The position numbers and the translations under genes were made by a program. This document shows, in pieces, positions 20,291-51,600 of a stretch of DNA of 64,000 nt. The notes beneath the pieces are model-generated. The model saw only the letters and a program-made list of their open reading frames with translations. It searched no databases and was not told the DNA's origin. Within the stretch, counting starts at the first letter, position 1. Every line of letters starts with the position of its first letter. The DNA lies in the NCBI RefSeq assembly GCF_964355755.1, contig NC_092672.1, positions 32,670,501 to 32,734,500 of the forward strand, read 5' to 3'. This DNA is from Antedon mediterranea. Lineage: Eukaryota > Echinodermata > Crinoidea > Comatulida > Antedonidae.

Positions 20291-20394
20291 CTTATATTAC
20301 TTTTACTTTCCCATTTGCCTGGATTTCTAGTTTCTTCCCACTATTCGAAAATAAAGTGAGATGATGTTATGGATCCTGGTCGAGCACTGCGAGA

Positions 20395-22819: not shown

Positions 22820-24781
22820 TTAATCATTTAGTTTAATTTTAGGTTGCTTCTGAGCGCGAACAATATAACATTTTGTATCAATATTTTTCATATCTTGAAT
22901 AGCCTTCGATGCAGCGTCATGGTTTTCAAAGCTTACAAAACCGAAGCCTCTGCTTTTTGAATTTTCATCACGCATCACTTTCGCACTGACGATTTTTCCA
23001 TATTTACTAAACTTTTCAACCAGTTGATCATCTGTAATATCAAGGTTCAAGTTCTTGACATAAACGTTTATGTAACTCTTCATTTTATCAACCTTCTCGG
23101 CAGCTCTGGCTTTACGACGAATCATATGACTTAGATATACTTGTTTTCCATTGTGCAACATGCCGTTGACTTTACTTATAGCCTTTGAGGCAGCATCTTC
23201 ACTCTTAAATTGGATAAACCCATAGCCTTTAGACTCATTGTTTTCATCACATAGAATCTTACAAGACAAAATTTTACCAAACACTGAAAATGCGTCATAC
23301 AGAGCTTTGTTATCAATTGCCTTGTCCAGATTTGCAATAAAGACGTCTCTCATCATGCCAGGTAAACTTGAATTACGTTTGGACCCCATGATATCTTTGC
23401 TATTACCAGTTGACGTGGTTACATGATGCGTTGTTTTGCGAGGAATCCAACCGAGATATACTTCTTTTCCATTGTGCAACATGCCATTGACTTTACGTAT
23501 AGCCTTTGAGGCAGCCTCTTCTTTCTCAAATTGGATAAACCCATAGCTATTAGACTCATTGTTTTCATCACACTGAATCTTACAAGATAACATGTTACCA
23601 AACTCTGAAAATATATCATTCAGAGCTTTGTTATCAATTGCCTTGTCTAAGTTGTCAAAGTAGATATATCCTGTGTGGATAGAATTTCTCCAATCTCTAG
23701 GAGGATGTGATAGTGTAGGTGATGTGACCACATTTGTCTTCTGAGGAATGTTCTGGGTTTGGTTAGGTGGTATTATTTGTTTTGCACCCAGCAAATTGCG
23801 TGAATAATATAAAGCAGGATATATCGGACTTGTATAGCTGAAATGTCTCCCTTCACTGGATGGTGAAACAGCAGGTATTTGACCAGTCTTTCGCCATAAC
23901 ATACATTTTACTCGTAGATTACGCTGTGATCGAAAGTTAAAATGTTGGGACATGTCATTTATATACCAGGATTTTTCTGTTTTGGGTAACCGGTATGAAT
24001 GTTCTTCATCTCGATCAATGCTGTAAACCTCAATAAATTGTGCCTGTCGAGCAACAGAACTAAAAAAATCCGTATTACCTCCTTTTGAATTTTCCAAATA
24101 CAAAATAAAGGCACCTGGTTTAGCTTGGTTTAGAAGTCTTCGTAGTGTCTGTTGTGAATTCGGTAGTGCCTTTATAGCCGATATAAACTTACTACATGTA
24201 ATCAGATCTGCACTAGCTATGGCTTTTACATGATCATGTGAAATATATCCTCTAATACCGACTTCAAAATGAAGATAGTCAACTGATACGCTTGATTTTC
24301 CACTTAGACTTGATAATAAACAATTAAATGCAATTTTCCAATTGAGATGTCGATCCAAAACCGTCGCACGAATCATTACTTCTGTATAACCGTTACTGTT
24401 GAGAAACATCTTAACACCAAACAAGTCCGTTCCCGGGCCTCCACCCAAAGCGCAGACATTTAGACAGCCACGACGTGAAATAATGTCCAATAGAGTGTTT
24501 AAATGACCGTGATCAAAACATTGTTGTAGACTGTCGGAAATACCATAACATAATACGGGAAAATATAGAAACACATAACAGGCTTGGTACGCAGGATCGT
24601 CAAAATCTACATCTCCGCCACCATCTTTCAGCGATGAGCCTTTATAAGCGTTACACAGTTGTTCAATGCAATTAGCCAGTTTATCACGACCTTTGTTGGA
24701 ATACTTTAAAATTTCATGTACTCCATACTTTATAAGAATCAGAACAGGTTTGCCTAGAGGCCAAGTCTGGTAATTATCCAT
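22820..24781 (-). CDS. Gene C: methyltransferase-like head fused to three PABP-type RRMs
   Basis: Single-exon ORF of 653 aa, closest to gene A (shared start [13 protein letters not shown]). Residues ~1-300 are the methyltransferase-like head with [19 protein letters not shown]. Residues ~370-447 and ~477-560 are two successive RRM2-type domains (LDKAIDNKAL; RNP1-like SYGFIQF and KGYGFIQF). Residues ~567-650 are RRM3 (RNP2 VYVKNL, RNP1 RGFGFVSF). RRM1, RRM4 and MLLE of PABPC are missing, so it could not bind MLLE partners as PABPC does. The last ~10 residues (KQPKIKLND) replace the usual RRM3 end. The ORF is fully open, unlike the split tail of gene A. The 48-aa repeat array of gene A is absent, with relics only downstream. 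RNA binding is likely from the RNP motifs; enzymatic activity is unproven. Confidence 0.85.
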   Translation of the reverse strand: MDNYQTWPLGKPVLILIKYGVHEILKYSNKGRDKLANCIEQLCNAYKGSSLKDGGGDVDFDDPAYQACYVFLYFPVLCYGISDSLQQCFDHGHLNTLLDIISRRGCLNVCALGGGPGTDLFGVKMFLNSNGYTEVMIRATVLDRHLNWKIAFNCLLSSLSGKSSVSVDYLHFEVGIRGYISHDHVKAIASADLITCSKFISAIKALPNSQQTLRRLLNQAKPGAFILYLENSKGGNTDFFSSVARQAQFIEVYSIDRDEEHSYRLPKTEKSWYINDMSQHFNFRSQRNLRVKCMLWRKTGQIPAVSPSSEGRHFSYTSPIYPALYYSRNLLGAKQIIPPNQTQNIPQKTNVVTSPTLSHPPRDWRNSIHTGYIYFDNLDKAIDNKALNDIFSEFGNMLSCKIQCDENNESNSYGFIQFEKEEAASKAIRKVNGMLHNGKEVYLGWIPRKTTHHVTTSTGNSKDIMGSKRNSSLPGMMRDVFIANLDKAIDNKALYDAFSVFGKILSCKILCDENNESKGYGFIQFKSEDAASKAISKVNGMLHNGKQVYLSHMIRRKARAAEKVDKMKSYINVYVKNLNLDITDDQLVEKFSKYGKIVSAKVMRDENSKSRGFGFVSFENHDAASKAIQDMKNIDTKCYIVRAQKQPKIKLND

Positions 24782-27663
24782 TTTTCAGTGCTAGGCCTAT
24801 GGGTTGCGTATGCAGTAGTAGTATAAGATGTATAATATGATGATAACTAAAATGTTTAGAAATTTCCAAACTTTAGTCATTACTATTTTTAGAAGTCATG
24901 ACAAGTTAGCCATGCATGCGATCATAACAATGTTCAATTCATTACAATATACCTACTTATATAACGCGATCGATACCGACAGAAAAATCGGCAGTAAACA
25001 TTCAGAATTTAAGCTTAATCATTATAACAAGTTAAAAAGAATTGTAATTGACAATATGTGTTAGTTCTTAGAATATATTGGTCATGTGACTGTCCTTTTC
25101 AAAATGTAGGTACAGTATGTATTTAATCATGGATTCTTTAATCCATGATTTAATAAAGTGATTATGATTGGTTGATCTCTATTATAAGGAAAACAATACA
25201 CACACAGTGTATGATAGCTACAGACTACCTGGGCCATGGAAGGCTATCAAATAGCCTTGCCTGGACCAGTGTGAAATGTGTAATTTAACTCTTCCCTGCT
25301 TGACCATAGAAATCAAAACTGTGTAGAGGTGGGGGAGCGAGGAATACATGACGTAGTATGGACTGGCTAGACAAGATATTGATTTGAATTCAAATAGGAC
25401 TACTTATAAATCAGCATAGAATACATAAAAGGCCGACTATTCAAGGCTACCCTTCACTTGAAGCCGGCCGAGGGGGTGTACCTTTTCATCGTGTAGAATA
25501 AACATCGCCCTTCTAAAGTGATCTTTTGAACCATACAGTGTGTGGTTAGGCCTATTATAGTTTTCTTTTCAATTCAATTCAATTTCTTTATTGCTGCAAA
25601 TTCCATCAAGGGCTAATACCGCTTAACTACATCATACAAACATAATACATATTTACATATAAAATTGTGGTTATAATTACTATAGTTATTATTGTCATTA
25701 CTATTATTTTATGATTTGAATACTGTAATTGAAAACTTTTAGGGGAATTCTTCTAAAAATCTATTAACACGATGAAAATGTAGTTTTCTGCTTGTCAATG
25801 GAGTCAGGATTATGATCATCAAAATCAAATAGAAGGTTCCGGGTTTGAATCTCGGTTGGGCGGCTTTATCTCATTTTCACAGATTTCCTCTCGTCTTTAC
25901 CTTTTCACTAATTAATTTTCAGTATATCACCGGGCGGTTTGTAATGCCTGTACATTTACTTATAATCCTAGGCCTAATCTACCGATTCTTATCTGAATCG
26001 TGCATATCTAAATATTTACTTAATATATTATTATTAAGTATATTTGTTCTTTCACTGTAATACTGTACGCTTAATATTAAATCAGCATAGAATACATAAA
26101 AGGCCGACTATTCAAAGCTACCCTTCTCGTGAAGCCGAGGGGGTGTTATACCTTTTCATCGTTTAGAATAAACATTGCCCAGTTCTAAAGTGATCTTTTG
26201 AATCATATACAGTGTGTGATTAGGCTTATTATAGTTTTATTTCTTTATCGCTGTCAATGGAGTCGCACTATGATCATCACAATCAAATAGAAGGTTCCGG
26301 GTTTGAATCTCGGTTGGGCGGCTTTATCTCATTTTCACAGATTTCCTATCTTTACCTTTTCACTAATTTATTTTCAGTATAGGCCTATCACCGGGCGGTT
26401 TGTAATTCCTGTACATTTACTTTTAATGTATAGGCCTAATCTACCGATTCTTATCTGAATCATGCAATCTAAATATTTACTTAATATATTATTATTAAGT
26501 ATATTACGTTCTTTCACTATAATACTGTACGCTTAATATTAAAACACTCAAAGTTCAAAATCTCAGTTTTAGTTTTTTTCCACACTAGTAAATTACACAA
26601 AAAAGGTAAAATGGTACAATTTCGTAATAAATTTATATATGAAAATTATATATATATAATTATATAATAATTAAATTGGTAAATATAATTTTAACTGAAG
26701 GGGAGCACAATCGACATTTAGGGCTGCCTCCCAACCCCTTTTTGTAGAGTAATTTATAATATCGGCTACACAAATTCTTTGATGAATGATGCATGTAATC
26801 CAAATAATCTAACGTTGTTTATCTGAATTAAGCTTATTCAAATATTTACTTAATATCCTTAGATTTTTCTTTCAATTAGGCCTAATATTTAAAAAAAAGA
26901 ATAAAACCGCTGGCACATATTTTAGGTTTTTTAGTTTATTGTTTCACATGGATGTTTATAAATTACATAAAATAATATACAAATAATGAATGTTTATGAG
27001 TGCAATGGTACAAATAATGGCACGAGGTGAATGATGAAAGGTTATATCAACGAGGCAAAGCCGAGTTGATATAACCTTTCATCATTCACCAAGTGCCATT
27101 ATTTGTACCATTACACGAATACAAAACATTCATTATTTGTTTTATATAACATCTAGACGTTTTTTTTTCGTACACAAAAATGTTTCAAAAAGTACTATTT
27201 AACGATCGTTGAATAGTGCGTACTATTGCACGCCATGTGACCCACATTCGTCCAATCAAATGACAGGAATTTATATAGGTGTTATATAATAAGTAATAAT
27301 TTCATAATACATGTATATATAACATACCATTACAAATTAAATACATCTTCTGTATGCATTAAATAGTTTCATTAAAACAAAATTTATCAGACAATATAAA
27401 ATCAACATAGTTTTCAATATATATAGCTTGATTGATCAAATATTCTACTTCTTCGTCCAAATATGAGCAAACTTCATTGTTAAAGGCTACTGCTCCACTG
27501 GCTCTAGCTTATGCATACGGTGTGCTGCATAGTTACATAATAAAATTCACAATCATATTTTTTAAACATTTCAAACTGGCACTATTATTAGTACAAATTT
27601 GCATTGCTGAGAGTCGATCCGGAGGACGTTACAGTACCACTGCATTCATTAAAATAAATCAAG
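24782..27663. other. Intergenic DNA between genes D and C, with local duplication
   Basis: No gene found. The part up to 25230 matches the 5' flank of gene A. About 25380-26050 and 26075-26560 are a tandem duplication of the block also seen once at 9240-9900 (CATAAAAGGCCGACTATTCA; GGTTCCGGGTTTGAATCTCG). The first copy carries an extra insertion at 25567-25707, absent near 9446. It begins with CAATTCAATTCAATTTCTTT and looks like the inverted 3' tail of a LINE. The 3' flank of gene D includes the conserved word AAAATAAATCAAGTTACAGC. Confidence 0.6.
26980..27139. repeat. 160-bp palindrome (hairpin MITE-like)
   Basis: The sequence folds almost end to end. An inner stem of GGTGAATGATGAAAGGTTAT and its inverse flanks a ~13-base loop. 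An outer stem of CAAATAATGAATGTTT plus GGTACAAATAATGGCA pairs with its complement, with a few bulges. No coding potential. Confidence 0.8.
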
Positions 27664-28878
27664 TTACAGCAAAATACATGGGCATGTTGTTGCGGAACGC
27701 GACTGTTGAACTTCTGTTCTTCGCCGCTGTCGTGATTCTGCTTCTTGGCGACCTCGCTCTTCTGGACGTTGGTTTCTTTGAGTTTCTGGATAACCTGTAA
27801 TATACTCGTTAGATAATTGTCTATGTGCTTGCAGTTGTTGTTGTCTTAACGCTTCTAATCTGGCTTTTCTTTGAGCTTGATAGTTTGCTGAAGGAATTGT
27901 AATGGCATGATGGTCAGATGTTTGCCTTGCTGAATCATGTCCAAATCTTGTATAGCTTCTCCCATCACTGCATGGTGAAACAGCGGGTATCTGACCAGTC
28001 TTTCGCCATAACATACATTTTACTCGTAGGTTACGCTGTGAACTGAAATTAAACAATTGGGACAACTCTTTTATCTGCCAAGATTGTTCTGCCCTGGGCA
28101 GCTGATACGGATTCTCCTCACCTCGATCAATGGTAGCAACCTCAACAAAGTTTGCCTGCCTAGCAACAGAACTAAAAAACTCTGTGTTTCCACCTTTTGA
28201 ATTTTCCAAATAGAATATGTAGGCACCTGGTTTAGCATGGCTTAGTAATTCTTTGAGTGCATGTCGTGAATTTGGTAGTGCCTTTATAGCAGATATAAAC
28301 TTACTACATGTGATCAGATCTGCCTTAGCTATGGCTTTAAGATTTTCAGATGCAACATGTCTACTACTGGCTTCAAAATGAAGATAACCAGCTGATAATT
28401 GTGGTTGCTGATCTAGGCTTGCTAATAAGCATTCAAAAGCAACATCCCAGCTGGAATGTCTATCAAGAACAGTCGCAGTAATTTGAATATCTTTACAACC
28501 TCTACTGTTGAGAAACATCCTGACACCAAACAAGTCTGTTCCGGGTCCTCCACCCAAAGCGCAGACATTAAGACAGCGACGAAGGGAAACTCTTTCTAAT
28601 AGCATGTTTAAATGCATGTCAAAGTAGAATTGTTGTAGACTGTCGAAGATACCATAGCATAAGGCGGGAAAATAGAGAAACACATAACAGGCTTGGTACG
28701 CAGGATCGTCAAAATCTACATCTCCGTCACCTTGATAAAGCGATGAGGGTTTATAACAGTTGACAAGTTCCTGCATGCATTCGGCCATGGCCAGTTCGTC
28801 ATGCCTGTCGGTGTACAGAAATATTCTATGGACCCCTTGCTTCATGAGAAGCAGAACAGGTTGTCCAAATCCTTCCAT
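27664..28878 (-). CDS. Gene D: methyltransferase-like protein with C-terminal CaaX box (CILL)
   Basis: Single-exon ORF of 404 aa, paralogue of gene B. Residues ~1-300 are the methyltransferase-like head ([52 protein letters not shown]). A short linker has one Gln-rich unit, then a strongly basic stretch (ESRQRRRTEVQQSRS), and the protein ends in CPCILL. Basic residues, an extra cysteine and a CaaX box together form a typical dual membrane-anchor signal; prenylation is predicted, not shown. Head, tail and 3' flank are conserved with gene B while the middle differs, so both ends appear to be under constraint. Its upstream region is also similar to that of gene B. Confidence 0.85.
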   Translation of the reverse strand: MEGFGQPVLLLMKQGVHRIFLYTDRHDELAMAECMQELVNCYKPSSLYQGDGDVDFDDPAYQACYVFLYFPALCYGIFDSLQQFYFDMHLNMLLERVSLRRCLNVCALGGGPGTDLFGVRMFLNSRGCKDIQITATVLDRHSSWDVAFECLLASLDQQPQLSAGYLHFEASSRHVASENLKAIAKADLITCSKFISAIKALPNSRHALKELLSHAKPGAYIFYLENSKGGNTEFFSSVARQANFVEVATIDRGEENPYQLPRAEQSWQIKELSQLFNFSSQRNLRVKCMLWRKTGQIPAVSPCSDGRSYTRFGHDSARQTSDHHAITIPSANYQAQRKARLEALRQQQLQAHRQLSNEYITGYPETQRNQRPEERGRQEAESRQRRRTEVQQSRSATTCPCILL

Positions 28879-29486
28879 CTGATGTGCCGCTCTCTGGTGA
28901 AAATGTTAATATAATTATTCTGTTCAAGCTCTAGAAATAACAGTCAAATACCGTTTGATATATCCCGTATAGATCAGGTGATCTGAGTTTAAACATATTC
29001 AGCCTATCGCGAGAACGTAAAATTTCCACTGACGTAATATTTAGCTATTGCTACCTGTTAAGTCTAGATATAAAACCTCAGAGTCAGACCAGATTGTGGA
29101 ATTTTCACATCAAGTAGCTGCAGGGCTTACAGGCCTATCGTATATGAGAATAGTAGGCCTAGTCCGAACAACATGAACAATTTTTTGCTGCACGATGTGA
29201 GAAATTGGAATTTCCACTGAAGTAATTATCTTAAGAGTGAAATATTTTGTTATAGTAGCTATAAAATACATTTATTTACAGAACTCGAAACTGGAATTTC
29301 CATTTTAGTCACATGATATATATGGAGAATGATTCATAGTGACCGTAACTACAACAACACTCTTGAGCTATATAGATTTCTACGATTTGCTGCCAGATGA
29401 AGCATAACGTATTCAATGACTATGTTTATTATCATAATGTAGATAAATTAAATATACAGAGTGTGTGTGCGTCACATTCACATAGT
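28879..29486. other. 5' flank of gene D
   Basis: No gene seen. The part near 29370-29425 (GATTTGCTGCCAGATGAAGC, CGTATTCAATGACTAT) matches the 5' flank of gene B, then the sequence runs into a foldback element. Confidence 0.5.
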
Positions 29487-31405: not shown

Positions 31406-34400
31406 ATGGAAGACAACAGAAAAAGACAACGTTATCGTGGCAGTCGTGGGCGGGGTGGTAAAAAAAATAAACAAAAATGTTTAACAAGCAAATCGAACGT
31501 AATAGAGAAAGCTTTGAAGACAGTCTGCGAAAATGGTGGTAGTATTTCTTTTGAAGATCTTGAAGCGAAAGTTGGAAAGATTTCACCTGATCTAGAAAGT
31601 TTTGAATACATGATATCACATCTTGATCATGAGTATTACCATTTTACCTTGGTAGACCATGAAGATGGTAGTACTGATGTTCAAGTGTTCACTCAAGTTA
31701 AGATCTGCCCGTCCTACCAAAAGAATGGCGAATGCAGGAAAGGTGATACTTGCTCAGATTTACACCTGTGTGGTTACTTTGCTACAGGTACGGTTTATAA
31801 TTGGCAGCCATTGTATTGCTAATTTTGTTTTTCAATTTTTTATGTTATAAAAGTATAAAATTCATTTTTGTATCTTAATGCAACTTGTCTATATTTAGTG
31901 GGCCTCCTATCAAAAACTGTTTGTATTGGAGTTTCTTGAAGGTCCCTTTCATCTAAATTAAATTAATTACTCTTAATTTGTACTTTTTTATTTCTTTCAT
32001 TAAAGGTTCTTTCTGCAAGTTTAAGATAAACTGTAGACAAACTCATCATTATCGATCAGATCACAACAAGCAGGTGTTAAGGAATTTCAAAATTGCCTTC
32101 TTGTCCCAGGGACTGGCAAGTGTGCTATTTCGATGGTCCTGGCCACAGTTTACTGTTCCCGATTTCTGTGGGAAATACCGCAGCAAGACCGGTTGTGGCA
32201 AGCATAATTGCAGATTTCTACACATTTGCAAGTAAGAAACAATCTGTAAAACCACCCCGCAATTTGATTTGGGGTATGTTATGCACCATGTGCCCGCTGC
32301 GTAGTTTGCACTGTTACATACCAAAATTTACTATATTCTTTACAAAATGGAAGAACCATCAACATTTTAGTGAGAATGCTATGGATTTTACCAAAAAAAA
32401 AAGATAATTAATTCAGCAATACCTGTATATGCATTGCTTTTACAAAATGTATACATTTATACGGCTTTACCACGTTGAAACACTGTCTTTAAACTCCCTT
32501 TGTGTTCATTATGTGCATTTCAGAAATCATGTTATGGAAACTTGCAAATTTGGCGCACGGTGTAAGTTTGCCCATGATATTTACCACGATAGATTTAATA
32601 CTCAATTACTAAAGCAGTTTGGGATTAGACTTGGCAGCAGTTCTGATGATATAATCCGCCTTATTAAGGAGCGCCATGAAGGATTCTATCGTCCTGATGT
32701 TGAGGTGCTTCAGGGTGAATGTGAAAAAACTGAGAGTGAATACAGTTTTGGGGAACGCAGCTGTGAGGAAGAAAGCCAATACAGCCAAGAAGACGGCAGC
32801 GATGACGATAGAGAAAGCATTGTATCTAGTTCTACTAATGAATTATATCAGGGAGCAGGTATGTTAAGTATACTATCATTTTACCAACAAAACAGCTAAT
32901 TGGAGAGAAAAAGTGCAGATGATCAAATAATCATACAAAGATATCTCCCAAGTTTCCGATAATTACAAATGATTCCCAACATTTTGAGAGATTTCTTGTC
33001 ATTTCCCACCAAATTCTCCTAATTGTTTTGGTACAAAAAAGACATCCTGAAATGCATAAATTTATCATTTAGGCTCTACTAATATAAAAATGCATTGCCA
33101 TCACAATGCATGTCATCATAATAATGCCAAGCTTGAAGTGCCTGCTTACTGTAGATGCTGATGCTAGATATTTTTAAAATAGCGCCATCTATTGGTGGTT
33201 GTATTTTGCTTTTAAAATATATCGTCCTCTATGGTAATATAATATATCCCGTTTTAAAATTTTTCTTTCTTTTAAACAAAATGATATACACACCGGCAGC
33301 AAAATTTAAATATTGTTTTATTTTAATTTTTTTAATTTTATGTATTTAAGCACATGTGGCCAACTGGGTGCACCGTGTACACTGGACCTACGTTTTTTTT
33401 ATAGTCCTATTCATGAAGACTTGTTCCACCACCAGAACTCGGAGCAGTTTGGCCGTGAACACATGTCGATATTGTTGGCTCTTTAGGTACAGTAAACAGC
33501 GCCCCTACCTTAACTGCTCAGCCATTTGACTCACTTATACCAATAGATATTATTATTATTAAAATTTAATTTTATTTCTAATTAGCTTCCAACGCTAGAC
33601 AAAGGTACAGACATCGCCATCGTGGTCGCCGCCGTAATTATAATCGAAGAAAGAAAGAAGAAAGTCTCACAAGTAAATCTTCTGTCGCTGAGAGATCACT
33701 GCAAGTAGTCTGTCAAAATGGTGGTAGTATTTCAGCGCAAGATCTTAAAGAGAAAGTTGGAAAGATTTCACCCGATCTAGGAAGTTTGGAAAACATCATA
33801 TCAGACCTTGATCATGAGAATTACCATTTTAAGTTCATAGACTATGAAGATGGTAATGTTGATGTTGAAGTGTACACTCAAGTTAATATCTGTCAAACAT
33901 ATCAAAAGAATGAATGCACCGATGACTGCACTGATTTACACCTGTGTGGCTACTTTGCTACAGGTATGGTAGTCTGTATTAACCCACCTAAACATGTTCC
34001 TCACCCCAAAACATGTTTTACATTAATGCAAAATCAGAAGTGCTTCTATGCAGAAGAGGTAAAGCCCAATCTAGTTCCCTCCAGACTTTAATATAGTTTG
34101 TTTTACTGGAGGAAGACCACGAAACCCCTGTTCCTCTCACATGCAATTCTAAAGTTTGTGTAACTTTTGAAACTTGACACAGAAAGTATATTACTCTAAC
34201 CATTTGGTATTTTTCAATATATACAGTACATAAAGTATGTAATATTCAAGATCACTCTCAGTGCAGAGAGGTATAACAATATTTTTAGTCGCGTGGAAGC
34301 GACTCTATAGTTCACTATGTCGGTCGGTCTGTCGGTCTGTCTGTCGGTCCGGTATCACTATACGTTTTATCGCTTTCTGACCTTATCTTGATATCAGTTT

Positions 34401-37400
34401 AATCTAGCTAAGTCAATTTTTCACAGTATATTCCTTATGGCCAGGAATCGATGTGGTTATGTTTTCACGGTGTGCAATAAAAAATTACGCGGTCTACGCA
34501 CGATTTAACAAAATCACGTTTGTAATCATATCTTCACAACCATGAATCACAATTAAATAAAATTTGGTACTCATAAATTTCAGGGCATAAATCATCATAT
34601 GGCAATACAATTACGTGCGTAGCGCATGTAACGCATGCGTACGCGCGCTTAAAATTTTCAAAATTTATTTTCGATGAAATAAGAGTACGTTTCAGGCAAT
34701 TTTAAGCGTTTACAAAATTGCCATGAGTACGCAGATTTTTGCGCGCGCACTGCACGTTAAATGTTATTGCGCACTCTTTTTGCCCGATTTCTGTTTTCTT
34801 GACTTACTTTTCAACTCGAAATTACGTTATACGAGCACGTCAAAAGTGACAGGCTACGCACGTGTAAATTAAAAAAATATGTAAAAACTGTTTTTAAACA
34901 TTTCAACATTTTTAAACATGTTCAGTAATTTTGGTCAGTTGGTAGGTTGGTCGGTCGGTCGGTAAACACTAAGCAGGCGACTGCAGCCATCTATATGGCC
35001 TTGTTATTTTATACCTTCCTGCACAATATACCAGATTTTGATCCCAGTATCATGGGAATATTCGGTAGTGTATAGCACCACATGTGTATCACATGTGATG
35101 CCTGTATCATGTTAGGGAAGGTATTGACTTAAGTTATGGTTAGTGTCATTGTTTGTCATTTCTTTTTTTTTAAATTGTTTGTAATTTTATTCTTCTCATT
35201 AAAAGGCTCTTGCTGCTGGTTTGGACGGCAAAGCTGTAGAAAAAGTCATGATTTTCGATCGGATTACAACAACCAAGTTTTAAAAAACTTTGGCATTGCC
35301 TTTCTAATACATGACGAGTTGAAAACTTTGCTTCGATGGAAATGTCCACAGTTTACAGTTCCAGAATTCTGTGGACAATACAGAAGAAACATGGGCTGTG
35401 GCAAAGAACGCTGCAGGTTTCTACATATATGCAGGTAAGAGTATTTCACAGTAAAATCCAGCACTGACCAATAGTTAAGTGATGATAACTAAACAAATAA
35501 TATCATTTGAATGTGGTGAAGTATACTGGAGTTTTTAAGCTTTTTATTACTGAATTGTAGAAGCACGGCCTATTATGTTAGTAATATCTATGTATGACTT
35601 GATGATGGTAAACTGTATATCTAAGGAGTTATTCCAACATTTCCCACAATTTGTAATGTTAATATGGTTGTATTTATATAGTAGATATTAGCTCTTTTAG
35701 CAGATTTTCCAAAAGTGATTGAAATAAAAGACAGATTGAATGACAATGACAACACTTGGTTTCCTTTCTCATGATAATTAGAATCATGTAAGTTACAAAA
35801 TAATAATTCTGCTTTTCAGAAATTTTGTGATGGAAACTTGCAGCTATGGAAAAAGATGCAAGTTTGCCCATGACATCTATCAAATAGAGTCTAATAAGGA
35901 ATTACTGTATAGGTTTCAAATTAGTCTTGCCTATAGCTCGGATGATGTCATCCGCTTGATCAAAGAGCGCCATCAGGAAATCTATCGACCTGATCTTGAG
36001 GTCTTGCAGAGTGATGGAGAAGATAATCAATGTAGTCAGGAAGAGTGCATTGATGAAGAAGAAAGTCCAGAAATCAGTCCACCTATCTCTCCTATATTAA
36101 TTACTCATAGGGATTTCGTTTCTCAAGAGTACTCAAGAAGAGATACTTTTACTCATAAACCAGAACAAATGGTTAGACAAACAAGCTCAAAACACAATTT
36201 TGCTCCATTTAAATCAAACGTCCAAGATTTGCTTAAGAGTTCTGCAGTAGTGACATCAGCTAAACCATCAACACAATATGTTCCAAATAATGAGATACAA
36301 CAGAAGTCACATCAAGTTCAACCTCTACCTAGTACCAAAGGAGAAAGGATTACACAACATGCACCATACCAGAAACAGGACAATTTCCAAGATATACCAA
36401 AGATGTCTTCGGTAATGACTGCAGTTAAACCATTGCAATATAACATTGCAACTAATCTGTTAGAAGAAAAGTCAGATATCCAGTCTGCATTCGTTTCTAC
36501 AAGTCAAGTTCAACCACTATCTAGTAGTAGAAGCAACGAAGAAAGAAACACATACACATACACATACAATCTAAGTCCAAAAAGTCCTTCATCAAACCTT
36601 AATTTCCAAGAAATGCCAACAAATTTGTCAGTTATGGCTGCAGCTAAACCATCAATATCACATATTGCAACTAATGTTTTAGAAATGAAGGTAGATTCTG
36701 CAAAGCAAGTTCAGTCACTACCTAGTAAAAAAAAAGAAATGGGTATTGCCAGATTCACAAAAAGTCCAATACAAGTGAAAATGAGAGAAATTTGCAAGGA
36801 CAACCTGAAAGGAAACTGCAGTAGTGGCAGTATGTGTCAGAGAATGCATTGTGATCTTCCTTATCAATGGCAAATGTCCATTAATGATAGGTGGGTTGAC
36901 TTTGATGATAGATCAAATCTGAAAGTGGAAGAAGGATTTTCTGGAGAAATCACTGATTGTCCTCAGTTTCCTGTAAATACTACCATGTAAGTTTTGGACT
37001 CTTTATTGCTTAAGCCCTGTCTACACTTTATCAAACTACTGTAGTTGACAAAAAAAGTGTGATGTACCCAAATATGGTTTTGATATGCCCAAATATTTTA
37101 GTGATATGACATCATCATGTCTCTGTGTAGACAGAGTTTTGGAAGTTTAAGTTAAGATTGTACTTTATGATAGTGTTGATGAAATTGAAGCACAAAATAA
37201 GCAGCTGGTATTGCAAAGAAAATTGTAGTTCAAGTTTTGTTTTTATATCTGCAAAATACATTCCATAACCAATTTATTGCTTGCTGACTACAATCACTAA
37301 GTTCATCCTGTTTATTCTACTTTAGTTATAAGAATTATATGCAGTTGTATTTTTTGTATTAAAAAATCTGAATTTTGAAATGAATTAATGGCTATTACTC

Positions 37401-39730
37401 TTCTTCTTTTTAAAAAAGGGATGTGTGTTTTGATAGCATGCTTGCATCCGATGGGTTAGACCTCATTTCAGTTGAGCGACTGGAAGTCAAAGGTGATGAA
37501 GATGTTTCTGATGCCTATCTGGTATCTCCGTGGTCTTGGTATTGGCAGGATGAATGTGGAAAGTGGATTGAATACAGCGAACAGGTAGGCTTGTTTAAAT
37601 ATTTTATCTTCTCAACACTCCTCAACCAACAAAAAGAGAGCAGTAAGCAAGTAACTACAGTAAATAGTGCAGGGAAGAATAGTGCAGGAGCAGAGAAATA
37701 TTGCTATTCATGCTCCAGCATACAGTACAGTATTTTGTATTATTAGAACATGATTAAAACAAGATTAATTTCCATTTTTAATTAGAATACCAAGCAGAGT
37801 GCACGATCAGACAAAGAAAGTTCAGATTTTGAAAGTTTGTTTAAAGCTTATAAAAATGAAAATGGAAGTTCCAGCGTTAAATTCAAGGCTGGCAATCAAA
37901 ACTACACTTTGGACTTCTCTGCCATGAGCCAAACCAATGATAGATACCATACCAAAAGACCTGTTTGTCGAAGACCAGTCAGACAGATAAAACCAAAGGA
38001 TGTTGAGAAGTACAGAAAAGAAAAACCTTGGTAAAAAATAATAATTGTTAAATTATTCTTATTCGTATTTCTGAATTCAGAATTAATTATTTCTCCTAGA
38101 TCATACGAAGGTATTTACTACCACATACTACTATGTTCCATTCTATAGCGGGTACTCTCCCTCATCACACACCAACCACCCCAGTAGTTTAAAATATTCC
38201 CAGTACAAATTCTGGTTATGTTGATCTAGTACTCTCAACCCCTAACCTTGTGTATGGAAGTTTGCAATAACAAACAAGTACTCAACCTGTAGCCCTAGTT
38301 TACTTTTACCAGGGAAGTTCATTTCACTCTTTCCTGCTGTTACCTTTTTTGTTATATTATATACTTAGGTTACACACTCATACTTTCCCAAGGACTTGGG
38401 ATACAACCATCAAAACAAAAACACATTGTCTTGTAAGAGTGACTAAGGAAGCAAATAACGAAGAATACAAAGAAATATCCAAACTATTTAAAAGAACTCT
38501 TCCAGATGGAGCAATAACTCGACTTGAACGAGTCCAGAATGAGATCTGCTGGGAAGCATTTGCACGGTAAATTTTAAAATGATATGATAAATTGTTTACA
38601 CTGTTTGACAGTAGTGATGTTATGGTATGAAAGATACATACTAATTTATAATAGCAATGCTATAGTTAATGCACTTACTACTTTTCTTAATTTTTATTAA
38701 AAAGTTTTGGGCCATATTATAAGAGCTTATGACATGAAGGTTATGGAATTTTTAAATAAAGCCTAAAGAAGGCCTTTAGCCTCGAACCAGACCATTGGTT
38801 CCCCACTGCAGCCAAATGTTGATAGCTTCATTTGCCTGTCTACTTTAAATATTGTGTCTATTGACCCTGAACTCTTTTTTCATTGATTTTTTAACAATTT
38901 ATTTTTGTCTCACAAGGCAAAGGGAAACCATGATGAAGAAAAACTCTCGTAGAAAAATTGAAGAGCTCCAACTGTTTCATGGAACAATGCAGGATAAAGT
39001 TGATGATATCTGTCGTGATAATTTTGACTTTCGCTTGAGTGGTACACGAGTTGGTCATGTTTATGGACAAGGAGCTTACTTCGCAAAGTCAGCAAAGTAT
39101 TCCAATGATTACGCTGAAAAAGACAGTGCTGGTAGGAAGAGGATGTTTGTTGCAAGAATTCTTGTTGGTAGCTACACAGTTGGCACAAAAGAGATGCGCC
39201 GGCCACCGTTTAAAGACCCGGCAGATAAGTCAAAGGGGATGTATGACTCTTGTGTTGATGATGTAGCTAATCCAAGTATTTTTGTGGTGTTTGATAACCA
39301 TCAGGTTTATCCAGAATATCTGATTACATATACCATTTCATCGCCTAATACAACATTATCTAGAGCATCAAACATTCAACCATCTATTGCGACCTCCTAC
39401 CCATCATCAAGAACTGCAGCAAGTGCCAGCCATTCAGGGTACAGTAACCCATATTCATCAAGCAGGTATAGCCCACCTACTGTCCGATCTTCAAGTTCAA
39501 ACCAACCATCTTACACTAACAACCCATACTCAGCAAGCAGGTATAGCCCACCTACTGTCCGATCTTCAAGTTCAAACCAACCATCTTACACTAACAACCC
39601 ATACTCAGCAAGCAGGTATAGCCCACCTACCATTCGATCTTCAAGTTCAATCCAACCATCTTACAGTAGTCAAAGTAGTTTGCCAAGGAGGGACAGCAAA
39701 GCAGATAATAATAAATGTATTTGTATGTAA
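31406..39730 (+). CDS. PARP12-like: PARP12/ZAP-like CCCH-WWE-PARP protein with duplicated N-terminal module and CaaX box, copy 1 (10 exons)
   Basis: Exons by GT/AG and phase: 31406-31787, 32006-32231, 32524-32858, 33586-33963, 35206-35434, 35820-36986, 37419-37584, 37786-38030, 38369-38566, 38917-39730. They join to 4140 nt, 1379 aa, with no internal stop. Exons 1-3 encode a basic start, a winged-helix-like segment (GGSISFEDLEAKVGKISPDL) and four CCCH fingers, the layout of the ZAP/PARP12 RNA-binding domain. Exons 4-6 encode a second full module with the same intron phases. Then come a fifth finger (CKDNLKGNCSSGSMC), WWE 1 (PYQWQMSINDRWVDF), WWE 2 (SPWSWYWQ) and a PARP domain with H1130, Y1163 and I1230. 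That H-Y-I triad is typical of mono-ADP-ribosyltransferases such as PARP12. The tail has three 25-residue Ser/Tyr/Pro repeats and ends in CICM, a CaaX box. The likely role is RNA sensing and mono-ADP-ribosylation at membranes. Confidence 0.9.
33250..33560 (-). mobile_element. tRNA-SINE copy in intron 3 of PARP copy 1
   Basis: Same family as 16370-16556 (GTGTACACTGGACCTACG; GACTTGTTCCACCACCAGAA; degraded tRNA head near 33500-33545). Introns at the same place in copies 2 and 3 (47125-47565 and 61210-61650) are shorter and lack it, so it is specific to copy 1. Confidence 0.6.
34265..35020. mobile_element. Unclassified interspersed element in intron 4 of PARP copy 1
   Basis: A copy-1-specific insertion beginning near AGTCGCGTGGAAGCGACTCT, followed by GTCGG-type short repeats. 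It ends near a second GGTCGG repeat block and GCAGGCGACTGCAGCCATC. It is CpG-richer than its surroundings. Copies 2 and 3 lack it at the matching position (near 48410 and 62500). No ORF. Confidence 0.45.
37010..37138. mobile_element. Short MITE in intron 6 of PARP copy 1
   Basis: Ends TTAAGCCCTGTCTACAC and GTGTAGACAGAG are inverted, with an interior containing GTGATATGACATCATCATG. It belongs to the same family as 41442-41606 and the repeat-bearing element at 43767-44395. The equivalent in unit 2 is 50346-50474. Confidence 0.65.
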
Positions 39731-42941: not shown

Positions 42942-45365
42942 ATGGCTGCATCAGGTACGATAGTTCTCCAATTTAAGATCTCAAATTTCACAAATCCTGA
43001 ATTTCAGCATACATCCATTCAAAGAAATAACATATTAGTGAACTTATTAAAATATTTCAACAAATATTTATTTTGCCATTGTAAAATGTTCTTTTCTATT
43101 TAGTACTTCTATTTTAAAATTATTTATAAAAATATATTATTTGTCTTAATTATATCAAACCGTTTATAACATTTAATCTGTTTTCGCTATATAGAAAGAC
43201 TTGACTCATCTTTTAAACAAGGTTTAATAACTTTTTCAACTTGGTATGACGAACGTTCGTACATAACAAAACTAAAAGTGTTGTACCAAGGTAAAATTGC
43301 AGAAACGGATTTATACAATGCCTCAACGACGATGGACTTGCTGAATCATTTATCTGATTCTGGGGATCACAGTTCAACAGATTACACTATTCTTTGTGAT
43401 ACAATAAAGGCCACTAAACAGTTTGGTATTATTGAAGAACTTCGAGTTCACATTCCATCTTTCCCGAATGTAAGAGAAGAAATCATTATTTCCAAGTTCA
43501 GTCATCATCAACAAAACATTATGAATTTAGGAAATGAACTAATACAGGAAGAAGTGAAAAAAATTGACATTATGTTCAATAAACCTCCAAAGAATCATAA
43601 AGATGGATGGAATCTCCTTTTGGATTTACAGCACAAACAAATTATTTGTGAAGAAGAGAAAAAAATGGATACATTTATTAAGACCTTAGATAATCTTGGA
43701 TTACCTCGCGCTGTAGCAACTCTTACTCAAGGTACAATGTGATGAGTTTATTGGAACATGCTTACATTAAGCTCTGTCTACACTATCAAACTTATATCAA
43801 AAAAATGTGATGTGCCCATACAGTATAAATATGATGATGTCATATCACTACCATATTTAAGCATATCACTACCATATTTTGGCATATCACTACCATATTT
43901 TGGCATATCACTACCATATTTAGGCATATCACTACCATATTTAGGCATATCACTACCATATTTAGGCATATCACTACCATATTTAGGCATATCACTGCCA
44001 TATTTAGGCATATCACTACCATATTTTGGCATATCACTACCATATTTAGGCATATCACTACCATATTTAGGCATATCACTACCATATTTAGGCATATCAC
44101 TACCATATTTAGGCATATCACTACCATATTTAGGCATATCACTACCATATTTAGGCATATCACTACCATATTTAGGCATATCACTACCATATTTAGGCAT
44201 ATCACTACCATATTTAGGCATATCACTACCATATTTAGGCATATCACTACCATAGTTAAGCATATCCCTACCATATTTAGGCATATCACTACCATATTTA
44301 GGCATATCACTACCATATTTAGGCATATCACTACCATATTTAGGCGTATCACACTTTTTTTGTCAAACTAGTTTGATAGTGTAAACAGAGCTTAAGAGAA
44401 AGTTATTTGAAAGCAATTTTTTTGCTTTCTACATAGTTTTAAAAATATTACTTAAATAATTTAAAACTTTCTATATATAATTTCAAACAATTGTAAATCA
44501 TGTATGAAATTGGTTCTTATTAATCAGAAATCATCAAAATATTTTAAATATCATTACAGATGTTCCAATATCCGTTACTATGAAACGTAAGTCTGACCAT
44601 GAAGACAATCAAGCTCTAAAGAGAACCTGTCTTCCCGCTGTATCTACACAAAGAAATCTTAATGGAAAACTAGAATGTTTTCAAAGCATTATTGATGAAA
44701 TTCTGCGATCTTTACATACTCTATCTAAAATTAGGCCATCATCACTAAAAGATATTGATGACAATCTACATCTTTACCACCTAATCTTTCTGATAATACA
44801 CCATCTGTACTCGCAACTATCCTTCAAAATCTGAAGTCTTTACAAAAAAACTATTAATGATAATCTACAAACATTACAATGTACTCTTAATATTGAAAAT
44901 AGGCCTGTGGAAAGACGTATTTATAAAAAACTGCAATCATTAAAAACCTTTCTTAAAAAAAGGAAACAATGTTTGTCAAATTTCACACCAACATTTTGTA
45001 AATACATAGGGGAACTAAACACTATGACACAAGATGATGAGCAGAGATTATTTAGGACAGTACAACTCCTGATTTCTTTCTGCCAAAGATATGGATGTGA
45101 ATTAAGCAAGCTGGAACGCAAATGTATAGTTTTTACTTTTTCTGTACTGGACCCCATTGCTCTGGCTAATCTGTGGAATATGTGTCAAACGGGAGAGCTT
45201 CTTATAAAAGTGTCAAAGGAGCATCAGAAGACATTTCAAGTGGAATGGACAACAGAAATTGACAAAAACAAATATAAGGAAGCACTTTGTATGCTTGAAC
45301 GAGAAGGAAGAGAAAACTGTTCAATGCTTCAATCGAATGAACAATTTTTTACAGGCATGTTATAA
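42942..45365 (+). CDS. DED and TRADD-N-like adaptor gene, copy A (frameshifted)
   Basis: Exons by splice signals and phase: 42942-42954 (MAAS), 43195-43731 and 44560-45365. Exon 2 starts with a death-effector-like domain (residues ~5-80): RLDSSFKQGLITFSTWYDE, KLKVLYQGKI, TTMDLLNHLSDSG, then a terminal helix KQFGIIEELR, in the order of FADD/caspase-8 DEDs. A second helical stretch ends LDNLGLPRAVATL. Exon 3 has a basic linker, Leu-rich helices and a block (GCELSKLERKCIVFTFSVLD, LWNMCQTGELL, YKEALCMLE) resembling TRADD-type N-terminal domains. As assembled it is broken by a missing A near 44770 and an A7 run at 44844-44850; the reading then continues open to 45365. The likely role is cytosolic death or inflammatory signalling. 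Domain names are by motif resemblance. Confidence 0.65.
43767..44395. repeat. MITE carrying a 21-bp minisatellite (about 24 units) in intron 2 of DED-like copy A
   Basis: Inverted ends TTAAGCTCTGTCTACACTAT and its complement (44371-44395) enclose an array of a 21-bp unit starting CATATCACTACCATA, from ~43838 to 44346. The simple MITE at 41442-41606 has only two to three such units, so the array grew inside the transposon. All frames without stops across the array are an artefact of 21 being divisible by three. It lies wholly within an intron. Confidence 0.85.
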
Positions 45366-45638: not shown

Positions 45639-48600
45639 ATGACAGACAACAGAAAAAGACAACGTTATCGTGGTGGCCGTGGGCGGAGTGGTCAAACAAA
45701 TAAACAAAATTGTTTAACAAGCAAATCGCATGTGATAGAGAAAGCTTTGAAGACAGTCTGTGAAAATGGTGGTAGTATTTCTTTTGAAGATCTTGAAGTA
45801 AAAGTTGGAAAGATTTCACCTGATCTAGAAAGTTTTGAATACATGATATCACATCTTGATCATGAGTATTACCATTTTACCTTGATAGACCATGAAGATG
45901 GTAATACTGATGTTCAAGTGTTTACTCAAGTTAAGATCTGCCCGTCCTACCAAAAAAAATGGTGAATGCAGGAAAAGTGATACTTGCACAGATTTACACC
46001 TGTGTGGTTACTTTGCTACAGGTACGGTTTATAATTGGCAGTCTATTGTTTTGTTATTATTTTTTTTAATTTGTTATTTAAAAATAAGTATGATAACAGT
46101 TTTAAAAAATGTGTTAACAAAGCAAAAATGTGGACATTCAACGAAACTTCCCCAGTAATTGTGTATTCAAAACTATTAACTAATTAAAGGCCTATTAATA
46201 TGATCTGTAATCAAAACTTTGAAGTTTGAGACTTTAAAAAATGCAAAACAACATGTCTAAACTGAACATTTCTGGTATTCTGTGGCAATGGGCCAGAACC
46301 ACGTTCTTGGTAAGGAAAGAGCAACTAAATAAGTTATTTTATTAAAGGTTCTTTCTGCTGGTTTGGAAGAACTTGTAGCAAAACTCATCATTACCGATCA
46401 GATCACAACAAGCAGGTGTTAAGAAACTTTAAAATTGCCTTCTTGCCCCAAGAACAGGCAAGTGTGCTATTTCGATGGGCCTGGCCACATTTTACTGTTC
46501 CAGATTTCTGTGGAAAATACCGCAGTAATACAGGTTGTGGCAAGCATAATTGCAGATTTCTACATCTTTGCAAGTAAGAATAACTGATTTTTATAAATTC
46601 TTTAAAAGCTGAAATAAAGAAACTTTAAACCATCCAGCGATTGCTTGGATTGTGCTTCTTGTCTGTCTGTGGGGCCAACTACATAGTGTTAGAACCTTAA
46701 CACTAGGTTCTTTTACCGAAACAGATATTGACCAATTTACAACAATTAAGTTGTACAGCAACTTTTCTCATGCCCTCTTTGCATTTCAGAAATCATGTTA
46801 TGGAAACTTGCAAATTTGGAGCACGATGTAAGTTTGACCATGAAATTTACCATGATGGATCTAACACCCAATTATTGAAGCATTTTGGAATTAGACTGGG
46901 TAACAGTTCTGATGATATAATCCGCCTGATTAAAGAGCGCCATGAAGGATTCTATTGTCCTGATGTTGAGGTGCTTCAGGGTGAATATGCAAAAACTGAG
47001 AGCGAATATAGTTTTGGGGAACGCAGCGGTGAGGAAGAAAGCCAATACAGTCCAGAAGAGGGCAGCGATGACGATAGAGAAAGCATTGTATCTAGTTCTA
47101 CTTATGAGTTATATCAGAGAGCAGGTAAGTTAAGTATACTCTAAATTTACAAACAAAACAGCTAATTTGAGAGAAAAAAATGATTAATGAAGTGCAGATA
47201 ATCAAATAATCATACAAAGATATCTCCCTTGTTAATTACAAATGATTCCCAAAATTTCGAGAGATTTCTTGTCATTTCCCACCAAATTCTCCTGATTGTT
47301 TTAGTACAAAAAGAACATCCTGAAATTCATAAATTTATCATTTAGGCTCTACAAATAAAAAAAATGCGTTGCCATCACAATGTACGTCATCATATGTCAT
47401 GCTTGGAGTGCCTGGCTTACTGTAGATGCTGATGCTAGAAATTTAAAATAGCACCATCTATTGGTAGTTGTATTTTTCTTTAAAATATTGCGTCCTCTAT
47501 GGTAATATAAAAATCCTGTTTTTTGAATAGATAAATCATTAAATTTTAATTTTATTTCTAATTAGCTTCCAACACTAGACAAAGGCACAGACATCGCCAT
47601 CGCGGTCGTCGACGTGATTATAATCGAAGAAAAAAAGAAGAAAGTCTGACAAGTAAATCTTCTGTGGCTGAGAGATCACTGCAAGTAGTCTGTCAAAATG
47701 GTGGTAGTATTTCAGCGCAAGACCTTAAAGAGAAAGTTGGAAAGGTTTCACCCGATCTAGGAAGTTTGGAAAACATCATATCAGACCTCGATCATGAGAA
47801 TTACCATTTTAAGTTCATAGACTATGAAGATGATAATGTTGATGTTACAGTGTACACCCAAGTTAATATCTGTCAAACATATCAAAAGAATGAATGCACA
47901 GATGACTGCACAGATTTACACCTGTGTGGTTACTTTGCTACAGGTACGGTAGTCTGCTTTAAGTTGCTGTTGTTGCTAACGTTTTCCGTCTTCCGACATT
48001 ACGCTTTCCACAATTTGTTTCCATTTTTTTCTGTTTATGGCAGGATGGTTTGTTATTGTGTTAGTGTCTACTAGTCCTTGTAAGTCTTTCTTTATTTGAT
48101 TCATCCAGTTATTTCTTGGTCTTCCTATGGGTAGTTTTACTTTCGATCCTGTTAGTTTCCTTCATTGTTTGTTTGATTGGTAGTCTGCTTTAACCCACCT
48201 ATTAAATGCAGTATCAGAAGTACCCTCTATGTAGAGGGGTAAAACCCCATCTATAGCTTCAATAGAATTTTTCTGGAGAAAGACTCCAAAACCCTTGTTC
48301 TTCTCATCTGCAATCTGAAGTTTGTGTATCTTTGGAAACTTTACACAGAAAGTATTACTGAAATATTTTAATCCTTTGCTATTTCAATATAATACAGTAA
48401 TACTCAAGGAGAGACCACTCAATTTTCAGAGCAATTTTTTTCCCAGTATCATATGAATATTCGGTAATACAGTATCTCATATGTATCATATGCCTGTATC
48501 ATGTAAGGTTAGGTTAATGGTTAGGTTATATGGTCTATAATATAAGGCAATACATGTGAAACATGATAATTATGAATGATAATTAATAATTATTTATTAT

Positions 48601-51600
48601 TTAACTTTGTTGTAAATTGTTTGTTATTTTTGTAAATGTATTGTTATTATAAGGTTCTTACTGCTGGTTTGGACGGCAAAGCTGTAGAAAAAGTCATGAT
48701 TTTCGATCGGATTACAACAACCAGGTTTTAAAAAACTTTGGCATTGCCTTTCTGAGACATAATCAGTTGAAAACTCTACTTCGATGGAAGTGTCCACAGT
48801 TTACAGTACCAGAATTATGTGGACAATACAGAAGAAACATGGGCTGTGGCAAGGAACACTGTAGGTTTCTACATATATGCAGGTAAGAATATTTCACATG
48901 TATAATAGTTGCAACCTCTGTAAAGTAAAAATTATTTATTTTATGATAAAATTAGTAAAATAATAAAAAGTGGTTCAGGTTCCTGGGCCGGATTGCCTCC
49001 AGCATTATCACACACACACAAATGAGGTAAATGAGGTAATAAAGTAATTATAACAAAACAAATATTTCATTTGCATTGAACCTTCAAGCATCATGGTCAA
49101 TCTTCAAGTGCTAGTTATGAGAATAAGAATCATAAAACTGCATAATAAAAAATTCTGTTTCCAGAAGTGTTGTGATGGAAACTTGCAGCTATGGAAAAAG
49201 ATGCAAGTTTGCCCATGACATCTATCAAATAGAGTCCAATGTGGAATTACTGAATAAGTTTCAAATTAGCTATAGCTCGGATGATACCATCCGCTTGATC
49301 AAAGAGCGCCATCAGGGAATCTATCGACCTGATGTTGAGGTCTTGCAGAGTGACGGAGAAGATAATCAATGTAGTCAGGAAGAGTGCATCGATGAAGAAA
49401 GTCCAGAAATCAGTCCACCTATCTCTCCTATATTAATTACTCATAGGGATTTCGTTTCTCAAGAATACTCAAGAAGAGATACTTTTACTCATAAATCGGA
49501 ACAAATGGTTAGACAAACAAGTTCAAAACATAATTTTGCTCCATTTAAATCAAACGTCCAAGATATGCCTAAGAGTTCTTCGGTAATGATTGCAGCTAAG
49601 CAATCAACACAATATGTTGCAAATAATGAGATACAACAGAAGTCATACCAAGTTCAACCACTACCTAGTACCAAAGGAGAAAGGATTACACAACATGCAC
49701 CATACCAGAAACAGGACAATTTCCAAGATATACCAAAGATGTCTTCGGTAATGACTGCAGTTAAACCATTGCAATATGACATTGAAACTAATCTGTTAGA
49801 AGAAAAGTCAGATATCCAGTCTGCATTCGTTTCTACAAGTCAAGTTCAACCACTATCTAGTTGTAGAAGCAACGAAGAAAGGAACACATACACATACACA
49901 TACAATCTAAGTCCAAAAAGTCCTTCATCAAACCTTAATTTCCAAGAAATTCCAACAAATTTGTCAGTTATGGCTGCAGCTAAACCATCAATATCACATA
50001 TTGCAACTAATGTTTTAGAAATGAAGGTAGATTCTGCAAAGCAAGTTCAGTCACTACCTAGTAAAAAAAAAGAAATGGGTATTGCCAGATTCACAAAAAG
50101 TCCAATACAAGTGAAAATGAGAGAAATTTGCAAGGACTACCTGAAAGGAAACTGCAGTAGTGGCAGTATGTGTCAGAGAATGCATTGTGATCTTCCTTAT
50201 CAATGGCAAATGTCCATTAATGGTAGGTGGGTTGATTTTGATGATAGATCAAATCTGAAAGTGGAAGAAGGATTTTGTGGAGAAATCACTGATTGTCCTC
50301 AGTTTCCTGTAAATACTACCATGTAAGTTTTGGACTCTTTATTGCTTAAGCCCTGTCTACATTTTATCAAACTACTGTAGTTGACAATAAAAGTGTGATG
50401 TACCCAACTATGGTTGTGATATGCCCAAATATTTTAGTGATATGACATCATCATGTCTCTGTGTAGACAGAGTTTTGGAAGTTTAAGTAAAGATTGTACT
50501 TTATGATAGTGTTGATGAAATTGAAGCACAAAATAAGCAGCTGGTATTGCAAAGAAAATTGTAGTTCAAGTTTTGTTTTTATATCTGCAAAATACATTCC
50601 ATAACCAATTTATTGCTTGCTGACTACAATCACTAAGTTCATCCTGTTTATTCTACTTTAGTTATAAGAATTATATGCAGTTGTATTTTTTGTATTAAAA
50701 AATCTGAATTTTGAAATGAATTAATGGCTATTACTCTTCTTCTTTTTAAAAAAGGGATGTGTGTTTTGATAGCATGCTTGCATCTGATGGGTTAGACCTC
50801 TTTTCAGTTGAGCGACTGGAAGTCAAAGGTGATGAAGATGTTTCTGATGCCTATCTGGTATCTCCGTGGTCTTGGTATTGGCAGGATGAATGTGGAAAGT
50901 GGATTGAATACAGCGAACAGGTAGGCTTGTTTAAATATTTTATCTTCTCAACACTCCTCAACCAACAAAAAGAGAGCAGTAAGCAAGTAACTACAGTAAA
51001 TAGTGCAGGGAAGAATAGTGCAGGAGCAGAGAAATATTGCTATTCATGCTCCAGCATACAGTACAGTATTTTGTATTATTAGAACATGATTAAAACAAGA
51101 TTAATTTCCATTTTTAATTAGAATACCAAGCAGAGTGCACGATCAGACAAAGAAAGTTCAGATTTTGAAAGTTTGTTTAAAGCTTATAAAAATGAAAATG
51201 GAAGTTCCAGCGTTAAATTCAAGGCTGGCAATCAAAACTACACTTTGGACTTCTCTGCCATGAGCCAAACCAATGATAGATACCATACCAGAAGACCTGT
51301 TTGTCGAAGACCAGTCAGACAGATAAAACCAAAGGATGTTGAGAAGTACAGAAAAGAAAAACCTTGGTAAAAAATAATAATTGTTAAATTATTCTTATTC
51401 GTATTTCTGAAGTCAGAATTAATTATTTCTCCTAGATCATACGAAGGTATTTACTACCACATACTACTATGTTCCATTCTATAGCGGGTACTCTCCCTCA
51501 TCACACACCACCCCAGTAGTTTAAAATATTCCCAGTACAAATTCTGGTTATGTTAATCTAGTACTCTCAACCCCTAACCTTGTGTATGGAAGTTTGCAAT

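Follow-up and report, generated by a model that had tools for sequence, protein, structure and literature searches.

The question raised by this locus is whether one PARP12-like gene encodes two complete RNA-binding modules of the ZAP type in a single chain. The locus lies in the crinoid Antedon mediterranea on contig NC_092672.1 (here C3). The analysed window is the whole stretch of 64,000 nucleotides at C3:32670501-32734500, and searches of the genome covered 354 Mb in 18 contigs. One bindin match above the family cut-off (E 2.3e-28) is in keeping with an echinoderm source, bindin being a sperm protein of echinoderms; COX1 gave no match in the assembly. The gene in question, copy 1, occupies positions 31406-39730 of the window on the plus strand and is followed by two related copies (copies 2 and 3); a sister gene with three modules (gene A) lies upstream of the window. 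With a probability of about 60%, copy 1 is read as a PARP12-type mono-ADP-ribosyltransferase whose whole ZAP-like RNA-binding domain has been duplicated inside the gene, which would give multivalent RNA binding in cis. The architecture and relationships of copy 1 are established at the level of sequence.

Gene structure and RNA-binding modules of copy 1

Copy 1 was assembled from ten exons separated by GT-AG introns, and the spliced frame of 1379 codons plus stop contained no internal stops. Exon 1 (31406-31787), with an acceptor 2 nt 5' of its ATG, encodes a basic tract, a winged-helix segment and CCCH finger 1; exon 2 (32006-32231) encodes fingers 2 and 3; and exon 3 (32524-32858) encodes finger 4 and an acidic linker and ends at a phase 1 donor. 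The same order recurs in exon 4 (33586-33963; basic tract, winged-helix segment and finger 1), exon 5 (35206-35434; fingers 2 and 3) and exon 6 (35820-36986), the last of which continues beyond finger 4 into a long linker, CCCH finger 5 and the start of the first WWE domain. Intron phases were 1, 2 and 1 after exons 1, 2 and 3, and 1 and 2 after exons 4 and 5. The sequence-only reading had described a fully open frame of 1379 aa in which exons 1-3 and 4-6 share one layout and identical intron phases. All of this was borne out, and in each set of exons the basic tract and winged-helix segment come with four CCCH fingers, every one of them complete.

The two modules were 62% identical as protein, and exons 1 and 4 were 81.6% identical as DNA across 266 nt of exon 1. 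Lys or Arg made up 11 of the 25 residues of the basic tract in module 1 and 12 of 27 in module 2. Both modules matched the N-terminal domain of ZAP (6l1w): E was 5.6e-12 for module 1 (residues 37-237) and 2.8e-17 for module 2 (residues 40-223). Because these alignments begin at residues 37 and 40, respectively, the winged-helix part is included in them. Both modules also matched the ZAP N-terminal domain entries 3u9g and 6uei, with ~180-200 residues each, and a profile built from six modules returned the same three entries as its top matches. The Pfam CCCH tandem scored above its cut-off of 27 bits in both modules (39.1 and 55 bits). In the six aligned modules of the cluster, zinc ligands were intact in 23 of 24 fingers, including every finger of both copy 1 modules.

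Counted from the exon 1 acceptor, the cassette of exons 1-3 begins and ends in phase 1, a symmetry that lets a duplicate placed in tandem keep the frame. Exon 4 contained no in-frame Met in any of the three copies. In all three, the frame just 5' of exon 4 reads '*LA' (stop-Leu-Ala), the stop lying three codons before the first full codon. Exon 4 thus offers module 2 no start codon, and a separate mRNA would require an unseen start exon. That modules 1 and 2 of copy 1 are translated as a single chain is a well-supported prediction.

Selection was assessed by comparing copy 1 with copy 2, with exon 1 represented by its first 105 codons only (before the copy 2 frameshift) and exon 6 by its finger 4 part only. 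Over 290 codons of module 1, 35 differences were synonymous and 40 non-synonymous, giving proportions per synonymous (pS) and non-synonymous (pN) site of 0.206 and 0.057 (Fisher p 1.9e-8). For module 2, the counts were 24 and 23 in 263 codons (pS 0.154, pN 0.036, Fisher p 6.7e-7). Both modules are under purifying selection. The sequence matches, the intron phases, the absence of a start codon from exon 4 and the purifying selection together support the reading of copy 1 as a single frame that holds two full RNA-binding modules of the ZAP/PARP12 type.

C-terminal half and relation to known proteins

Downstream of the modules, the WWE region continues through exon 7 (37419-37584), exon 8 (37786-38030) encodes the second WWE domain, exon 9 (38369-38566) the N-terminal part of the PARP domain, and exon 10 (38917-39730) the PARP catalytic domain, low-complexity repeats and a C-terminal CICM. 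Finger 5 and the WWE region matched ZAP 7kzh at E 1.3e-24 (query residues 17-204). The Pfam WWE model scored above its cut-off at 65.5 bits, and WWE_4 below its own (17.8 against 24.5 bits). The PARP domain was closest to PARP12 (2pqf, E 5.3e-51), with ZAP 4x52 at E 1.8e-25. Its HGT, YGQGAYF and YPEYLITY align with HGT, YGKGSYF and YPEYVIQY of 2pqf, and we take these motifs to hold the catalytic His, Tyr and Ile (H-Y-I). The PARP domain is of the PARP12 type with catalytic residues kept, and mono-ADP-ribosyltransferase activity is predicted.

Copies 1 and 2 both end in CICM, which is CaaX-like with Cys rather than an aliphatic residue in third position. In copy 3 the same letters are present downstream of an in-frame stop. 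As the CAAX box of ZAP is dated to tetrapods in the accessible text of PMC12204182, the CICM end of copy 1 would be independent.

Human PARP12 (2pqf, 8xpx, 6v3w) has the same overall plan, with an N-terminal CCCH array, finger 5, a WWE pair and a catalytic PARP domain. It has one RNA-binding module, whereas copy 1 has two and gene A three. ZAP (ZC3HAV1/PARP13) is resembled in its N-terminal domain by each module, in its central domain (7kzh, 7sz2) by finger 5 and the WWE pair, and possibly, in the form ZAP-L, by the CaaX-like C-terminal motif. The differences from ZAP are a PARP domain nearest to PARP12 with catalytic residues kept, the loss of two of the four CpG contacts and the presence of two modules in cis. 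The available part of PMC12204182 places the origin of ZAP in the ancestor of lungfishes and tetrapods; on this published dating, copy 1 is not a ZAP orthologue. A further comparison is the mammalian four-finger gene ZC3HAV1L, in which, according to the portion of PMC8102003 available, the four-finger domain was copied as a unit. In ZC3HAV1L this domain stands alone in a separate gene, whereas in copy 1 it was added within one reading frame.

One module per protein is the plan of the known PARP12/ZAP members (PMC8102003), and it is broken by copy 1 (two) and gene A (three); we regard it as a description of those members rather than a rule of descent. No doubled ZAP-type module was reported in the titles and abstract openings of the papers listed by the literature searches; subscription papers and eukaryotic sequence databases lay outside that scope, and absence is unproven. 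None is described in the accessible parts of PMC8102003, PMC9519448, PMC4245714, PMC11685948, PMC9888277 and PMC12204182.

The gene cluster, the three-module sister and other PARP12-like loci

Copy 2 (45639-53062, plus strand) has ten exons and two modules, as in copy 1, with an early stop as assembled. Copy 3 (59724-64000, plus strand) has the layout of copy 1 and runs beyond the window into the adjoining fetched stretch, L003. Arrays of a 21-bp tandem repeat lie between the gene copies, at 43694-44497 and from 57402 of the window. The genome was searched with module 2 (E up to 0.001, only the 25 best candidates being scored), and at least 28 matches were found, 28 of 28 in C3:32.659-32.734 Mb. 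Nine of the 28 were module first exons, three belonging to gene A and six to copies 1-3 (two per copy). Of the ten matches to the Pfam PARP12 finger model (E up to 1), seven lay in the cluster and none was above cut-off; this search reads each exon separately, and introns split most fingers. Between copies 1 and 2, synonymous divergence (dS) was 0.12-0.34 in exons 1-5, 0.069 in exon 6 and 0-0.03 in exons 7-10, indicating that heads (the RNA-binding modules) and tails differ in age. More PARP-type tails, of a PARP12/ZAP-like family, were seen at L003 6834-8474 (C3:32741334-32742974) and in L006 (C3:32368001-32375000). No RNA-binding module was matched beside these tails by tblastn with copy 1 within the fetched stretches.

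Gene A (C3:32659080-32668318, fetched stretches L001 and L002) encodes three modules and finger 5 in an open frame of 1162 codons. A transposon-like insert of 730 bp, bounded by inverted repeats and with the 8-bp target duplication CGCTTGAG, interrupts its PARP exon. In finger 2 of its module 2, the first Cys is replaced by Arg, and after its ninth exon the frame is lost at the homologous junction unless splicing uses a donor ~4 nt downstream.

The middle module of gene A was compared with its neighbours in 40-base windows. Beginning at the start of the module, each window as far as position 10,099 of the joined L001 and L002 placed it closer to module 3, the last of these matching module 3 at 38/40 and module 1 at 24/40. 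From 10,100, it was closer to module 1 in every window where module 3 aligns, the first of these matching module 1 at 40/40 and module 3 at 26/40; its similarity to module 1 drops to 24/40 in one window that lies in an intron. By blastn pieces, the switch point lies at 10,075 to 10,117, within the second exon of the middle module. Unequal crossing-over between modules of a two-module gene would give such a recombinant; gene conversion is an alternative origin.

Exon trees grouped gene A module 1 with module 1 of the copies (support 0.986 for exon 1 and 1.000 for exon 2) and gene A module 3 with module 2 of the copies (0.978 for exon 2 and 0.998 for exon 3). Three results speak against a simple history: exon 1 of gene A module 1 was most similar as DNA to copy module 2 (89%), the position that the exon 1 tree gives to copy module 2 was without support (0.078), and gene A modules 1 and 2 were 98% identical in exon 3. 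The cluster displays what would be a route to multi-head proteins, namely phase-symmetric exons combined with recombination between modules, with the switch point inside one exon. We regard it as possible, and put it forward tentatively, that the number of heads per protein is an evolving and perhaps population-variable trait, in which symmetric cassettes and unequal crossing-over make two, three or more heads and tune cis avidity for multi-site viral RNA.

Elsewhere in the genome, C1:38743380-38753493 holds a tandem gene pair, each gene with one module, finger 5, WWE-like exons and a PARP exon. This pair fits the familiar plan invoked by the sequence-only reading, that of one module before finger 5, WWE and PARP parts. 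The second gene has phases 1 and 2 at its first two introns. Read to the first stop, the pair has neither a basic tract nor a CaaX-like end and terminates at the PARP domain. For comparison, invertebrate genomes typically carry one ZAP/PARP12-related gene, according to the accessible text of PMC8102003. A further locus, C3:9177314-9184313 on the minus strand (L007, L008), was read by eye as a winged-helix exon, fingers 1-4 and the finger 3-4 pair repeated twice more, followed by finger 5, WWE-like exons and a PARP part lacking the HGT motif. Together with gene A and the copies, this locus indicates growth of the CCCH array at two or more loci, by different ways.

Proposed explanation, its rivals and other features of the window

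In the proposed explanation, both modules would be made as one protein and each would grip single-stranded RNA, the two together providing avidity for multi-site RNAs. As the sequence-only reading suggested, the pair may engage two sites of a single RNA or two separate RNAs. ADP-ribose would be the ligand of the WWE pair, and proteins on the captured RNA complex would be the targets of the PARP domain; the CaaX-like C-terminus may anchor the protein to membranes. The likely role would be viral RNA recognition. One CpG is bound per ZAP molecule and ~15 CpGs are required for strong HIV-1 inhibition, as stated in the available portion of PMC9519448; multivalent recognition via ZAP-ZAP interaction and TRIM25 multimerisation is proposed in that of PMC11685948. 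The valency that vertebrate ZAP is proposed to gain by clustering would here be built into one chain. The two heads of copy 1 and the three of gene A, with its visible recombination point, suggest that this animal adds heads inside a single chain, in place of the clustering of separate molecules proposed for vertebrate ZAP. A naturally occurring chain that carries two or three heads of the ZAP type would put the ZAP clustering model to a direct test.

Several observations weigh against this explanation. The Pfam winged helix was under its cut-off of 27 bits in both modules (20.2 and 15.2 bits), and AlphaFold models, made from single exons with six-row alignments, were poor, with a mean predicted local distance difference test (pLDDT) score of 43.4 for exon 4 and 41.1 for exon 1. 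Exon histories are mixed, in that exon 1 of gene A module 1 is nearest by DNA to copy module 2 but falls with copy module 1 in the tree. Copies 2 and 3 are both frameshifted at a shared A-run in exon 1, with a stop after 108 codons. Of the residues of ZAP that contact CpG, K89, Y98, K107 and Y108 (accessible text of PMC8102003), K89 is replaced by G and Y108 by K or Q in all six modules, as aligned by eye. The antiviral role is predicted from family resemblance.

The other two contacts were also aligned by eye. Five of six modules have K or R at position 107, the exception being module 3 of gene A with M. At position 98, all six have W or F when the second zinc Cys of finger 2 is set at C96, and four of six do if the alignment is ungapped. 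With K89 and Y108 lost throughout, ZAP-like CpG specificity is not to be assumed. The observed/expected CpG ratio was 0.62 in the window and 0.48 in the copy 1 coding sequence, a moderate depletion, and ranged from 0.53 to 1.2 across eight fetched loci. CpG-based discrimination by these modules is possible but unsupported, and from their sequences the motif recognised by the heads need not be CpG.

An alternative is a decaying tandem array, in which one intact gene stands amid pseudogenes and module 2 is a neutral by-product of duplication. The damage to the other genes is consistent with it. Of the four genes (copies 1-3 and gene A), only copy 1 is shown intact end to end in the assembly. The A-run in exon 1 of copies 2 and 3 is, as assembled, one base too long for the frame. 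Copy 3 bears two further lesions, an insertion of 2 nt in exon 6 and an in-frame stop close to where the PARP domain ends. Gene A has its split PARP exon and the missing Cys of module 2. With copies 2 and 3 frameshifted in module 1, the doubled head may not persist in every copy. A -1 slippage on the A-run was considered as a repair of copies 2 and 3 and rejected, as such a shift leaves the frame unrestored. On the other side stand the strong purifying selection on both modules between copies 1 and 2 and the 1162 open codons of the three-module frame. The exon 1 frameshift itself may be an assembly error in the A-run or one mutation that was copied, since copies 2 and 3 are 99.7% identical across their first 3364 bp. 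A decaying array with a neutral module 2 appears unlikely.

It is likewise doubtful that the second head is a protein-binding platform rather than an RNA binder, in which case the heads may split RNA binding and cofactor recruitment between them. The RNA-binding domain (RBD) of human ZAP recruits KHNYN and TRIM25 as well: in the available part of PMC11685948, ZAP constructs containing the RBD co-precipitate KHNYN, and one without it pulls down neither KHNYN nor TRIM25. The copy 1 modules differ at ~38% of residues and fall into separate groups in the exon trees, and yet both keep the basic tract and all zinc ligands, as would suit two RNA binders.

Very unlikely is the remaining alternative, that the modules lie on different mRNAs, with exons 1-3 giving a short one-module protein that ends in intron 3 and exons 4-10 read from an unseen 5' start exon. 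In its favour, readthrough past the exon 3 donor reaches a stop after 13 codons, intron 3 of each of the three copies contains AATAAA or ATTAAA, as do the two corresponding introns of gene A 24 nt from their start, and an ATG is retained in the first exons of gene A modules 2 and 3. Joining is supported by the start-less exon 4 with its upstream stop, by phases that suit splicing, and by donors at the homologous end of exon 3 both in the three copies and in the first two modules of gene A. A short isoform stopping in intron 3 may exist alongside the fused two-module product, which remains the preferred reading.

Other features of the window were recorded alongside the gene copies. A large palindrome at 18287-21998 has four-piece arms that are 97-99% complementary, with matching open reading frames (ORFs) on both strands; the sole Pfam match was under its cut-off. 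Four long paralogous ORFs lie on the minus strand at 829-6801, 10069-11817, 22820-24784 and 27664-28905, and have a common N-terminal domain that is methyltransferase-like by eye. The ORF at 10069-11817 had no Pfam match at E 0.01, and that at 27664-28905 matched nothing in PDB at E 1 or in NCBIfam at E 0.1. Two of the four terminate in CILL, of the CaaX type. Three RRM stretches were seen in the ORF at 22820-24784, and the ORF at 829-6801 contains ~22 copies of a 48-aa repeat.

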